Shown: positions 37,431 to 42,158, counted from the first letter of the stretch. The stretch: DNA of 44,142 nt from Bacillota bacterium (GCA_040757205.1 JBFLXL010000007.1:1-44142), one strand, 5' to 3'. Notes: a model not told the origin generated them from the sequence alone. Numbers and translations are program-made.

Positions 37431-38096
37431 TCAGCTTCCGAAGAAGCGTGCGATATCGGCCGCAAACCTTAACAGAAATTGAAATGCAGGCTTCACCACC
37501 GCCGCCAGGTAGATGCCGATGGCACCGGTGACCAGCAGCACGATCAAAACCGCGAAGCCGTATTTTTCCAGGCTGTAGAGCCATTCCTGCCGCCCCGGCA
37601 AGATTCCGGCCAGGATCTTGGACCCATCCAGCGGCGGAACCGGCAGCAGGTTCAGGAAAGCCAGCACCAGGTTGATCAAAATCAGGGAGTGAAGAAAATT
37701 GCCAAAAAGCGTTTGCGTCACGGCCGCGATCCCCTGCAGTCCCATGAGCAGGCCCAGAAGCACCGCGCCGACGGCGGCGAGCAGCAGGTTGGAACCCGGT
37801 CCGGCAAACGAAACCAGCATCATTCCCCGCTTGATGTCGCCCCGGAAGTTGTGCGGGTTCACCGGCACCGGTTTCGCCCAGCCGAAGACCACGCCGGCGT
37901 TCAGGAGCACCAGCGCCGCCGGGAGGATGATCGACCCGACCGGGTCCAGGTGGGGGATCGGGTTAAGCGTCAGGCGCCCGGCACGCTCGGCCGTCCTGTC
38001 GCCGAGCCTCTTGGCCATCCAGCCGTGCGCGACCTCGTGAAAGACCACGCCGATCACGATGACGAGAACGGCAATCACGGGATTGGCCCCGAACAT
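37431..38096 (-). CDS. Site-2 protease family protein (M50 zinc metalloprotease)
   Basis: A 221-residue multi-pass membrane protease that would cut membrane-bound substrates. The zinc motif HEVAHG (near residue 26) lies in the first membrane segment, and LNLLPVPPLDGSKIL supplies the third ligand Asp. The small form without PDZ is widespread in Clostridia. ATG 38096 overlaps the stop of the DHH-CBS gene as TAATG; a TTG at 38114 would add six residues. Substrates are unknown; it is not an obvious SpoIVFB by length or motif. Confidence 0.92.
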   Translation of the reverse strand: MFGANPVIAVLVIVIGVVFHEVAHGWMAKRLGDRTAERAGRLTLNPIPHLDPVGSIILPAALVLLNAGVVFGWAKPVPVNPHNFRGDIKRGMMLVSFAGPGSNLLLAAVGAVLLGLLMGLQGIAAVTQTLFGNFLHSLILINLVLAFLNLLPVPPLDGSKILAGILPGRQEWLYSLEKYGFAVLIVLLVTGAIGIYLAAVVKPAFQFLLRFAADIARFFGS

Positions 38097-40720
38097 TACG
38101 AGCGGTCCCCCCAATCCATCATTGTCTCCCGGGCCAGGTTCAATTCCCCTTCCCGGGAGGTCACCTCACCGCGCAATTTGGCCCGCCACACCGCTTCCCT
38201 GATCCTCTTCATGCCGGTTTGTTCCCGGTAACCCAAGTCCCTAATATCTTTGCCCGTGATCACCGGTTTATGTTTGTACAGTGCGGCCAGGGCTTCCCGG
38301 AACCGTTCTTTCCAGGCTTTCTTCTCCAGCATGAGCAGCACGATCGGGTAGCCCTCGCGCGGCAGGTTCACGAGGTTTAACGCCGCAGCCCGGGCCTCAG
38401 GCGCTTTTGCCGCCGACAGCCTGGATACCGCGGACCGCCAGCCGGCAATCGTGTACAGGATTTTGTCGGTCTGACCTTTGCGCAGCTGATACGACCGGCA
38501 GAGCTCGTCAACAACGACCAGGTTCTGCCAGTGCAGGATGGCGATCAAGTAGCATAGCCAGGGCTCGGCCGGCTGGGGCACTTTCCAGGAACCAAGACTG
38601 TCAAGGGCCTTGGGTATTCCCGAGATCATCGGTTGGACTTCCCAGTACAGGATGTCCGGAAACAACGACGGCCAGAGATTGAGCTGGGCCAGCCGGGCCA
38701 ATATGGCCGGAACCCGCGGCTCCTTCAGCAAACGCCGGAACTCGGCCCAGATCCGGTCGGGCGGAGCCTGGGACAAAAGCTTGTCACTCACCGCTTCCCG
38801 GATCAGCTTCAGCGTCTCCCGTTCGATATTGAAACCAAACCGCTGCTCCAGGCGGACCGCTTGCAAAAGACGCACCGGGTCTTCCTCGAAACTGTGGTTG
38901 TGTAAGGCGCGGACCACCCCGTGGTGCAGATCGTCACGGCTGCCGAAATAATCGATCACTTCACCGAAGCGGTCGGGGTTCACCCCCACGGCCAGGGCAT
39001 TCACGGTGAAATCCCGCCGGTAGAGTTCGTGCCGCAGGGCGGATACTTTGTTATTGGGCAGTTCCGAACCATGCTCAAAAAACCCGGTCCGCAAGGCCAC
39101 GATGGCCACTTTCCGCCCGTTACGGGCGATTGTATACCCCGACCGGTCGTCAGCGCCGAGCCGCCCCCCGGCCTTCCGGGCCAGTGCTTCGGCAAAGGCC
39201 GGCCCGTTACCCTCCACCACCAGCTCCAGATTTTGGCCCGGGGAACCCAGAAACACATCCCTGACCGTTTCTCCAGTCAGGTAGACGGCGCAACCGGTGG
39301 CCGAACCAACCTCGCCGGCGACCGTCAGAAGATCGGCCTGTTCGGGTTTGAGGCGGCGCCGGATCAGGTCGGCCGCGTCCCGGTAGTAGGACGGGACGCG
39401 GGTCTTTACGTACAAGGTGGAAAACCGCGGTTTGAACTGGGGATGCAGCGTCTTTAGGATGTCGGTCCGGGAAACGATCCCGATCAGGTACCCGTTATCC
39501 ACAACCGGCAGCCGGCCGATATTGTTCTCGATCATTACGGCCTGCACTTCGGTAACCGGGGTATCCCGTGAAACGGTGATCACGTTTTTGCTCATGTAAC
39601 CTTTGACCGGTGCGTGACCCAGGTTGTGCCGCTGGGCCTTCTCCACGTCCCGCCGGGAAATGATCCCGACCAGAGCGCCGTCCGACACCACCGGCATCCC
39701 GCGGTGTCCGTAGCGCAGCATGATCTGGTTGGCCTCGGAGACCGCGATGTCGGGGGGCACGCTTTTCACCGGCGAAGTCATGATGTCCCCGGCCAAAAGC
39801 GGCGGCACCACCATTTCTCCCACCACCTGCAGGAGTTCCGCCGTGATCGTTTCCACGTCGGTGCTCTTTACGGTGGCCGAGGCGGCCGCGTGGTGCCCGC
39901 CGCCGCCGAAGTGGGCCAGAATGTCCCGCACGTTCACCTCCGGAAGCGTGCTGCGCCCCACGATGTGGGTCCGGTCCTCCATGGCCACCGCGCAAAAAAC
40001 GGCGTCCAGCTGTTCAAGCTCGGCCAGCTTATGCGTCAAGAGCGCCAGGCCGCCGACGAATTCACTGACCCGTGTACGCGCCACCAGAATCCGGGCGCCG
40101 TTGACATAATGTCTCTCCGCCGAAATCAAGAGGTCCCGCAGCAGGTTTTTCTGCTCGTTGGTCAGGGGGCGCCCCAGGAAATTGGCCACCACGCCCAGAT
40201 TCGCTCCCTGGGCCAGCAGGAAGGCGATCGACTCCGCGTCCCGGTCGGTGGTACTGGAGAAAATCAAACACCCCGTGTCGCCGTAAATACCAAGCGCCAG
40301 CACCGTGGCCTCGTAGGGCGAGACCGGAACCCCGCGGCGCTTGATCTCCTCGACCAGCAGCGTGGTTGCGGCGCCTACCGGCTCAACGATCTCCAATTCA
40401 CCCTTCAGGTCGCCTTCCATCCGGGGGTGATGGTCCCAGACGTGAATCCGGAGCCTGGGGTTCTTCAAAATCTCCGCCAGGCGTCCCAGGCGGTTGGGTT
40501 GCATGGTATCCACCACGATCAGGAAGTTCACGTCGGAAAACCTGATTTCGCTCGGTTTCCGGATTTCAAGGATATCCATGTGGAGCGCGACAAACTCCTC
40601 GACATTCTGGGCCATTTTGCCCGGGAGCACCAGTTCGGCGTCCGGATGCAGCTTCTGCGCGGCCACCATCGCGGCCAGACCGTCGAAATCAGTATTGGTG
40701 TGGGTTGTGATCACTTTCAT
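38096..40720 (-). CDS. DHH/DHHA1 - CBS pair - class II nucleotidyltransferase-like fusion
   Basis: The 874-residue protein has four parts. Residues 1-180 are a DHH phosphoesterase domain (HTNTDFDGLA, VDTMQPNRL, DHH at 96-98, YGDTGCLIF). DHHA1 follows with GGGGHHAAA (272-280). Two CBS domains lie at about 315-430. From about 460 on there is a poly(A) polymerase/CCA-transferase-like head and helical tail (RRDFTVNALA, LHNHSFEEDPVRLL). Geobacter and Desulfotomaculum relatives with this layout are annotated as tRNA nucleotidyltransferases. Here, however, the DxD motif reads N497-L-E499, and the third carboxylate (usually Asp in IDVATAR) is Ala539, so the head is probably inactive, while the DHH residues look intact. 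The stop overlaps the site-2 protease start. Confidence 0.9.
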   Translation of the reverse strand: MKVITTHTNTDFDGLAAMVAAQKLHPDAELVLPGKMAQNVEEFVALHMDILEIRKPSEIRFSDVNFLIVVDTMQPNRLGRLAEILKNPRLRIHVWDHHPRMEGDLKGELEIVEPVGAATTLLVEEIKRRGVPVSPYEATVLALGIYGDTGCLIFSSTTDRDAESIAFLLAQGANLGVVANFLGRPLTNEQKNLLRDLLISAERHYVNGARILVARTRVSEFVGGLALLTHKLAELEQLDAVFCAVAMEDRTHIVGRSTLPEVNVRDILAHFGGGGHHAAASATVKSTDVETITAELLQVVGEMVVPPLLAGDIMTSPVKSVPPDIAVSEANQIMLRYGHRGMPVVSDGALVGIISRRDVEKAQRHNLGHAPVKGYMSKNVITVSRDTPVTEVQAVMIENNIGRLPVVDNGYLIGIVSRTDILKTLHPQFKPRFSTLYVKTRVPSYYRDAADLIRRRLKPEQADLLTVAGEVGSATGCAVYLTGETVRDVFLGSPGQNLELVVEGNGPAFAEALARKAGGRLGADDRSGYTIARNGRKVAIVALRTGFFEHGSELPNNKVSALRHELYRRDFTVNALAVGVNPDRFGEVIDYFGSRDDLHHGVVRALHNHSFEEDPVRLLQAVRLEQRFGFNIERETLKLIREAVSDKLLSQAPPDRIWAEFRRLLKEPRVPAILARLAQLNLWPSLFPDILYWEVQPMISGIPKALDSLGSWKVPQPAEPWLCYLIAILHWQNLVVVDELCRSYQLRKGQTDKILYTIAGWRSAVSRLSAAKAPEARAAALNLVNLPREGYPIVLLMLEKKAWKERFREALAALYKHKPVITGKDIRDLGYREQTGMKRIREAVWRAKLRGEVTSREGELNLARETMMDWGDRS

Positions 40721-40835: not shown

Positions 40836-42158
40836 CTACGCCTCTCTGGTGCGAAACCGCGCCGGCAGAACATCGTTTCGGATCAGGTCGGCGTAGCTTT
40901 CCCGGCGCACAATCAACTCGGCGCTCCCGTCCCGGACCAGAACCATTGCCGGACGGGGATACCGGTTGTAGTTGCCCGCCATCGAGTAGGTGTAAGCCCC
41001 GGTGCAACTAACGGCGACCAGGTCGCCGACCCGCACCGGCGGCAGGTACGCCTGCCGGATCAATACGTCCCCCGACTCACAGTAGCGGCCGGCCAGTGAG
41101 ACGCCGGCGGTGTGAATGGGCCCGTTCATCCGGTTGGCCAAGCACGCCTCGTACTTAGCTCCGTACAGAGCCGGGCGGGGGTTGTCTCCCATCCCGCCGT
41201 CCACCGCCACATAGGTCCGGATATCTGGAATCTCTTTGACCGTGCCTACGGTGTACAACGTTGTCCCCGCCGGGCCGGAGATGGACCGCCCGGGCTCAAC
41301 CAATATCCTGGGAATGGGCAGGTTTTCGTCAGCTGCGGCCCGCGCAACTGCACCAAAGATCGTTTCGGCCAAGTTCTCCACAGCCGGCGGGTCATCCCCC
41401 GGACCATAGTAGATGCCCAGACCACCGCCCAGGTCAAGCTCTTCAATCACCCAGCCCGTCACGTCCCGCACCCGGCCGGCGAAGGCCAGCAGGATCCGGG
41501 CGGCGTCGGCGTACGGTTCCAGTTCGAAGATCTGCGAGCCGATATGGCAGTGCAGTCCACGCAGCCTCAAAGCCGGATGCTCCAGGCAGCGGCGGACCGC
41601 TTCCAGCGCCTGACCGTTCAAAATGGCCAAGCCGAACTTCGAGTCGATCTGTCCGGTTCGGATGTAATCATGGGTATGGGCCTCAATCCCGGGGGTCAGG
41701 CGCAGCAAAAGGCTGCATTCCCGGCCTTGCTCCGCCGCCAAGCGACCCAGAAGGTCAAGTTCGTCGATACTGTCACACACGAACCGGTGCACGCCAAGAC
41801 GAAGCGCTACCCGCACCTCGTCGGCCGTCTTGTTGTTGCCGTGAAAATAGACCCGGTCCATCGGGAAACCAGCCTGGACGGCGGTGTAGAGCTCGCCGCC
41901 GGAGACGACGTCCAAGCCCAACCCTTCTTCCTCGACCAACCGGCAAACGGCAAGGGTCAGGAGGGCCTTCCCCGCGTAGAGCACCCCGCCGTTGCCTCCG
42001 GCAAAGGCCCGCCGGTACGAACGGCAGTTTTCTCGAAACAATGCTTCATCCAGCACGTAAAGGGGCGTCCCGAAAACCCGGGCCAAATCGATGGTGTCGC
42101 AGCCCCCGATTTCCAGGTGGCCTTTTTCGTTGACCCGCATGGTGCCGTGCAGTCTCAT
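40836..42158 (-). CDS. lysA: Diaminopimelate decarboxylase
   Basis: LysA makes lysine from meso-diaminopimelate with PLP. The 440-residue product has the PLP lysine in VLYAGKALLTL (near residue 64), HCHIGSQI, GGGLGIYY, EPGRSISGPAG and YCESGDVL, with the catalytic Cys in the last. The family length is normal. ATG 42158 follows GGAGG by 5 nt. It lies downstream of trpB2 but is separated from it by a 102-nt stretch that contains a duplicated copy of the trpB2 3' end, with no clear terminator. Confidence 0.97.
   Translation of the reverse strand: MRLHGTMRVNEKGHLEIGGCDTIDLARVFGTPLYVLDEALFRENCRSYRRAFAGGNGGVLYAGKALLTLAVCRLVEEEGLGLDVVSGGELYTAVQAGFPMDRVYFHGNNKTADEVRVALRLGVHRFVCDSIDELDLLGRLAAEQGRECSLLLRLTPGIEAHTHDYIRTGQIDSKFGLAILNGQALEAVRRCLEHPALRLRGLHCHIGSQIFELEPYADAARILLAFAGRVRDVTGWVIEELDLGGGLGIYYGPGDDPPAVENLAETIFGAVARAAADENLPIPRILVEPGRSISGPAGTTLYTVGTVKEIPDIRTYVAVDGGMGDNPRPALYGAKYEACLANRMNGPIHTAGVSLAGRYCESGDVLIRQAYLPPVRVGDLVAVSCTGAYTYSMAGNYNRYPRPAMVLVRDGSAELIVRRESYADLIRNDVLPARFRTREA

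Follow-up and report, generated by a model that had tools for sequence, protein, structure and literature searches.

A DHH-CBS-tRNA nucleotidyltransferase fusion with a predicted dead nucleotidyltransferase head in a Bacillota bacterium encoding a separate rtcB-linked CCA enzyme

We analyzed a 44,142-nucleotide stretch of DNA from a Bacillota bacterium (the window), which carries a gene for an 874-residue fusion of a DHH-DHHA1 phosphodiesterase part, a pair of CBS domains and a tRNA nucleotidyltransferase whose head is predicted from its residues to be catalytically dead. Probably, the duty of maintaining CCA ends moved to a separate enzyme encoded beside rtcB, the fused head lost catalysis, and a DHH-CBS phosphodiesterase with an attached pseudo-nucleotidyltransferase was kept. 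The reading frame, strand, length and every motif quoted in the initial annotation proved correct when frame and motifs were re-checked. No Rfam RNA or tRNA was found within the window. The parts of the gene are as follows:

38096..40720, minus strand: DHH-DHHA1-CBS-CBS-nucleotidyltransferase fusion with a predicted dead head, 874 aa (open reading frame, Pfam, NF041569 and synteny)
39806..40720, minus strand: DHH-DHHA1 phosphodiesterase part, residues 1-305 (Pfam and residue conservation)
39431..39805, minus strand: CBS domain pair, residues 306-430 (Pfam CBS in two stretches, 114.7 bits)
38900..39343, minus strand: nucleotidyltransferase head, residues 460-607, catalytic carboxylates lost (PF01743, 54.6 bits, and alignments)
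38099..38899, minus strand: neck, body and tail, residues 608-874, with E613-D614-P-V-R617 kept (PF12627, 43.3 bits)

Pfam places DHH (residues 3-145), DHHA1 (232-300), two tandem CBS domains, PolyA_pol (479-604) and PolyA_pol_RNAbd (629-690) along the protein, with scores for DHH (29.4 against a cut-off of 28.1 bits) and DHHA1 (27.0 against 25.9 bits) above threshold. The best NCBIfam match is NF041569, A-adding tRNA nucleotidyltransferase (592 bits over 866 residues), so the closest automatic name is indeed that of a tRNA nucleotidyltransferase, as had been expected. Since the curated cut-off of NF041569 (1440 bits) is missed by two intact relatives (767-798 bits) as well as by the fusion, it is not diagnostic here and was dropped as a test of activity. 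The gene is flanked by lysA (40836-42158) on one side and by genes for an M50 peptidase and then trpS on the other. The order trpB-like/lysA/fusion/M50/trpS is conserved in full or for the most part in relatives of both kinds, those with dead and those with intact heads (at the syntenic locus of genome G047, no trpB-like gene was seen), and this shared synteny indicates that the relatives are orthologues rather than paralogues.

The catalytic carboxylates of the Thermotoga maritima CCA enzyme are D55, D57 and D99 (PMC3925840). When the head was aligned with this enzyme (3h37), and also with 1vfg, the three positions expected to be acidic in an active class II CCA- or A-adding enzyme were found to be N497, E499 and A539. 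These and two further altered motif positions are:

39269..39271, minus strand: E484, at the second Gly of the VGG motif (Gly in >=97% of intact heads and in 2 of 18 dead heads)
39230..39232, minus strand: N497, first catalytic carboxylate position, T. maritima D55 (alignments)
39224..39226, minus strand: E499, second catalytic carboxylate position, T. maritima D57 (alignments)
39104..39106, minus strand: A539, third carboxylate position, T. maritima D99 (Asp in intact heads, in 0 of 18 dead heads)
39083..39085, minus strand: G546, position of the conserved Glu in ATARxE (order-wide alignment)

The GG..RD motif is incomplete (G483-E484-T-V-R487-D488, read as TGETVRD), and the strand of the third carboxylate reads K-V-A539-I-V-A-L-R-T-G546, residue 546 being Glu in intact relatives. 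Motif B (RRDFTVNAL at 568-576, with R568, R569, D570 and N574) and the ED..R residues of the neck (E613, D614 and R617) are present. The claim of a dead head, with N/E/A at the triad and the second Gly of VGG lost, was thus borne out by alignments to solved structures and across the order. With none of its three metal-binding carboxylates left, the head is predicted to be incapable of nucleotide transfer. It had been foreseen that other acidic residues might take over the DxD role, and the alignment revealed no substitute: among the columns that are acidic in all heads of the source family (f1), no replacement carboxylate lies on the catalytic strands. Nearly all of these columns are frequently acidic in intact heads too, and since the few exceptions (646, 738 and 739) are off the catalytic strands, no takeover by other acids is visible.

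Fusions could be aligned from 102 of the 113 genomes of the order. The triad is broken in 18 of them, comprising all eight genomes of f1, all eight of family f17, one of f2 and one of f15, and the remaining 84 headed rows have D/D/D at 497/499/539. Many different replacements are found: NEA, NET, NEK, NEL, NER, NKL and DEN in f1, EKY, ETK, ETH, KSS, VHH, VHY and DTK in f17, DRR in f2 and NDS in f15. None of the 18 dead heads has an acidic residue at position 539 (in f1 the residue is A, T, N, R, K or L), seven of the eight f1 genomes have N at position 497, and no dead head contains a stop or frameshift. The same dead state occurs in an independent MAG at 96% identity (L003; the near-identical G001 has the same motifs). 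Together with triad loss in all eight f1 genomes, this argues against chance or sequencing error, and the open frame in all relatives, along with purifying selection, rules out a sequencing error or pseudogene. Some deviating architectures were also seen. Genome G090 encodes a 451-aa DHH-CBS frame (L242) with no head downstream, and its genus relatives carry the full fusion; the headless frame could be a truncation or an assembly fault. Two proteins of 449-468 aa (L243 in G098 and L061 in G045) have an intact head without DHHA1 or CBS, and that of G098 opens with a short remnant of DHH motif I (ITTHINTDMDALSS) fused directly to the head, as by in-frame deletion.

In the DHH half of the protein, residues H7, D11, D13, D71, D96, H97, H98 and D148 are present in 18/18 dead-head proteins, and the fusion has the GGGGHH motif of DHHA1, so that the residues typical of the DHH-DHHA1 superfamily are complete in the source protein, as initially noted, and in every dead-head relative. 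Dead-head proteins keep 97% of cells in the DHH columns that are invariant in intact relatives (n = 61), compared with 63% in the invariant columns of head and neck (n = 60). The lost columns cluster on the catalytic strands (484, 497, 499 and 527-565), and motif B is retained along with a large part of the neck. At a DHH identity of 0.7-0.8, head identity is 0.58 between dead pairs versus 0.74 between intact pairs. In simple pairwise estimates, in which dS is high for some pairs, the dead lineages have a head dN/dS of 0.09-0.24 once the very close pair G000/G001 is set aside. The ratio of head to DHH values is ~1.4 to 3.5 in these lineages, against 0.5-1.7 in most intact pairs and 2.9 in one intact pair of f14. 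The low head values suggest that the head is relaxed yet constrained rather than junk, and pairwise dN/dS indicates purifying selection over the whole protein, in keeping with the earlier suggestion that selection had kept it.

Since the triad was lost while the DHH site stayed complete, the activity retained is most likely that of a DHH-type phosphodiesterase, whose substrate, judging from the families concerned, would be short RNA or some related small phosphodiester; on the same grounds, the CBS pair may serve as an adenine-nucleotide sensor. The fusion gives weak whole-domain matches to NrnA and to c-di-AMP phosphodiesterases, and it scores only 51.1 bits on the NrnA equivalog NF053633, below the cut-off of 350 bits. 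A standalone NrnA-like candidate in the source genome (L172) reaches 97 bits on the same model, also under 350, so the fusion may still act in the manner of NrnA although it does not qualify as a member of that family. Its presence means that the fusion is not the only DHH nanoRNase candidate of this genome, a notion that was rejected on this ground, and suggests that the fusion probably has a niche of its own. The reverse kind of damage was seen in another order, where one fusion (L374 in G206) has an intact D/D/D head but is damaged at the DHH site, with D11 changed to G and DHH to DHY.

A search of the source genome for a second, intact CCA-adding enzyme, as had been proposed, recovered a loop-bearing candidate. 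This second PF01743 gene (L001) encodes 491 aa and is located on contig C8, the fusion being on C7. It shows VGGAVRD, E-F-D, EIEIATFRTE, a flexible-loop region ending in RPEKVEFV, and an HD domain, and it aligns to bacterial CCA enzymes. It resembles the fusion in belonging to the same head superfamily (PF01743 plus PF12627), but differs in these head motifs, the flexible loop and the HD domain and in the lack of DHH and CBS. An enzyme of this type, with the loop motif HRPEKV[ED]F[VL] or one near it, is present in 17 of the 18 dead-head genomes; in the exception (G001), which is 73% complete and also without rtcB, no second enzyme was found. The gene adjoins rtcB in 16 of the 17 genomes, and in the source genome rtcB lies eight bases upstream (G000:C8:76346-79720). 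The pair has the appearance of a tRNA-repair operon. In the rtcB-linked enzymes of f1, f2, f15 and most of f17, E-x-D replaces D-x-D, with genus g19 alone within f17 keeping D-L-D. The CCA enzyme of A. fulgidus works with Glu59, Asp61 and Asp110 (PMC3925840), so a Glu at the first position of the source enzyme is compatible with activity.

Whether tRNA genes encode CCA had also been raised, and all 34 distinct tRNA genes sampled in the source genome do so. Since CCA is encoded, the duty of the enzyme would be repair rather than synthesis. In the intact-head genome G047, 40 of 41 distinct tRNA genes sampled likewise encode CCA; a tRNA-Cys (GCA) gene there (L177) is without it. Given these two counts, missing encoded CCA was ruled out as the driver of the split. 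In a 60-genome subset, 17 genomes have an intact fusion together with a loop-less enzyme of the CC-adding type, loss of the flexible loop being the mark of bacterial CC-adding enzymes (PMC7014341). In 20 others (e.g., G054, G037, G041 and G044) no nucleotidyltransferase of the superfamily was found besides the intact fusion, which is therefore probably a full CCA-adding enzyme rather than an A-adding one, against its NCBIfam name.

In a tree of the DHH-CBS part only, built by a quick method, the 18 dead-head proteins and that of genome G012 form one clade (SH-aLRT 96), and the tree of the second enzymes agrees with the fusion tree in its main groups. These patterns are most simply explained if the rtcB-linked CCA enzyme was gained a single time, at the base of this clade, and the triad was afterwards lost in separate events. 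The congruent trees support vertical inheritance of that enzyme after its putative single gain. Genome G012 (assembly 95% complete) sits within the dead-head clade and keeps D/D/D in a divergent head (62 bits); no second enzyme was found in it, and no cca frame follows its rtcB gene. As one genome, it is a natural control for the takeover account that is suggestive only. Four genomes of family f5 (G011, G036, G075 and G076) have intact heads plus a second enzyme, which in G011 and G075 is a loop-bearing CCA enzyme of another type and in G036 and G076 is of a similar kind. Takeover by a second enzyme is thus not sufficient for decay of the head.

Dead heads recur outside the order. Among 78 fusions from other orders in our sample of the phylum, 75 keep D/D/D and three are dead, all of them in family f44 (REA in G311, LEM in G265 and EEK in G241), with DHH residues complete in all three. 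The nearest sampled relatives outside f44 have D/D/D. The DHH-CBS tree covered members of the order; the position of f44 outside the order, together with the intact triads of its nearest sampled relatives, suggests that the triad was probably lost at least twice in the phylum.

In the account that we favor, the protein is orthologous to the other DHH-CBS-tRNA nucleotidyltransferase fusions in its order, and a class II CCA enzyme with a flexible loop and an HD domain, beside rtcB, would have taken over CCA repair. Heads freed from this duty could then have lost the triad differently in each lineage, with the DHH-DHHA1 site staying complete. The dead head, neck and body most likely remain in place as a folded module with a structural or regulatory role, for which RNA binding is possible.

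A more specific role for this module, and one that we hold as tentative and on the unlikely side, is that the dead head binds the 3′ ends of tRNA or other RNA and presents them to the DHH nuclease for end trimming or surveillance. The LYRRDFT.NA motif, D590, D597, S610, F611, E613 and R617 are largely kept where the catalytic strands are not, PolyA_pol_RNAbd is still recognized at 43 bits, the C-terminal tail is full length in f1, and DHH proteins of the NrnB type digest RNA starting at its 3′ end (PMC12709177). However, the base-selecting D614 is kept in only 6 of 18 dead heads, and the retained residues may serve folding only. The tail is also shortened in genus g19 of f17 and in f44, and shortening in two dead-head lineages argues against one shared tRNA-binding role. 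It is likewise rather doubtful that the head is a functionless relic in slow decay, kept only by its attachment to DHH-CBS. Raised head divergence in dead lineages would fit such decay, and the headless frame of G090 would mean that the head is dispensable, if that assembly is right. The low dN/dS of the head, the invariance of several neck and motif B residues across 18 genomes of four families, and the absence of any stop or frameshift speak against it.

The co-occurrence of a dead head with a separate CCA enzyme in 17 of 18 genomes, with rtcB alongside in 16, could also mean that the fusion, as a dead partner subunit, serves to activate or position that enzyme or RtcB, as in other enzyme/pseudo-enzyme pairs; yet replacement predicts the co-occurrence equally and the genes lie apart, on C7 and C8, making this improbable. 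Least credible of all is a head that still transfers nucleotides through other carboxylates, or through E499 with a substitute third residue, since the acidity of E499 and the known use of Glu at catalytic positions by some family members (PMC3925840) are outweighed by the non-acidic residues at 539 in all 18 dead heads, the prevalent N at 497 in f1 and the lack of any new conserved acid on the catalytic strands. As a speculation that we consider unlikely at present, dead heads might have arisen at least twice in the phylum as a distinct class of DHH phosphodiesterases gated by CBS domains, the former polymerase having become a sensing or RNA-end-recognition domain. If this were true, a builder of RNA ends would have turned into a remover of RNA ends or a signaling enzyme.

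The dead-head clade would document the replacement of a tRNA maintenance enzyme by one linked to rtcB, and a second family shows head loss again. Annotation passes the A-adding name to proteins that are probably incapable of that reaction. We found no description of dead tRNA nucleotidyltransferase heads in the open-access literature, and the papers searched do not address what the DHH and CBS parts do in such widespread fusions. Loss of the polymerase with retention of the DHH site suggests that the DHH-CBS part has been selected for a function of its own, and dead-head fusions offer natural proteins in which this part could be assayed without competing polymerase activity.

Among known systems, the CCA enzyme of T. 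maritima in its native form is reported to share the Nrn/DHH-CBS-nucleotidyltransferase make-up (PMC8208693) and provides the closest solved head (3h37, aligned to residues 445-693), but it is active with D55/D57/D99 (PMC3925840) where the fusion has N/E/A, and its Nrn and CBS domains are reported to be dispensable for CCA addition (PMC8208693). The intact fusions of the same order (NF041569) match over the full length and have the same gene neighborhood, but possess the triad and score higher (767-798 bits for two relatives vs. 592). Phosphodiesterases of the NrnA, NrnB and GdpP types have DHH, DHHA1 and all of the motif residues checked; they are standalone or fused to PAS-GGDEF (PMC12709177), whereas the present protein joins these domains to a CBS pair and a pseudo-nucleotidyltransferase. 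DHH-DHHA1 parts in tRNA nucleotidyltransferases are mentioned in the same NrnB study (PMC12709177). The Nrn-CBS-CCA fusion is therefore known, and what is new is a version with a dead head.
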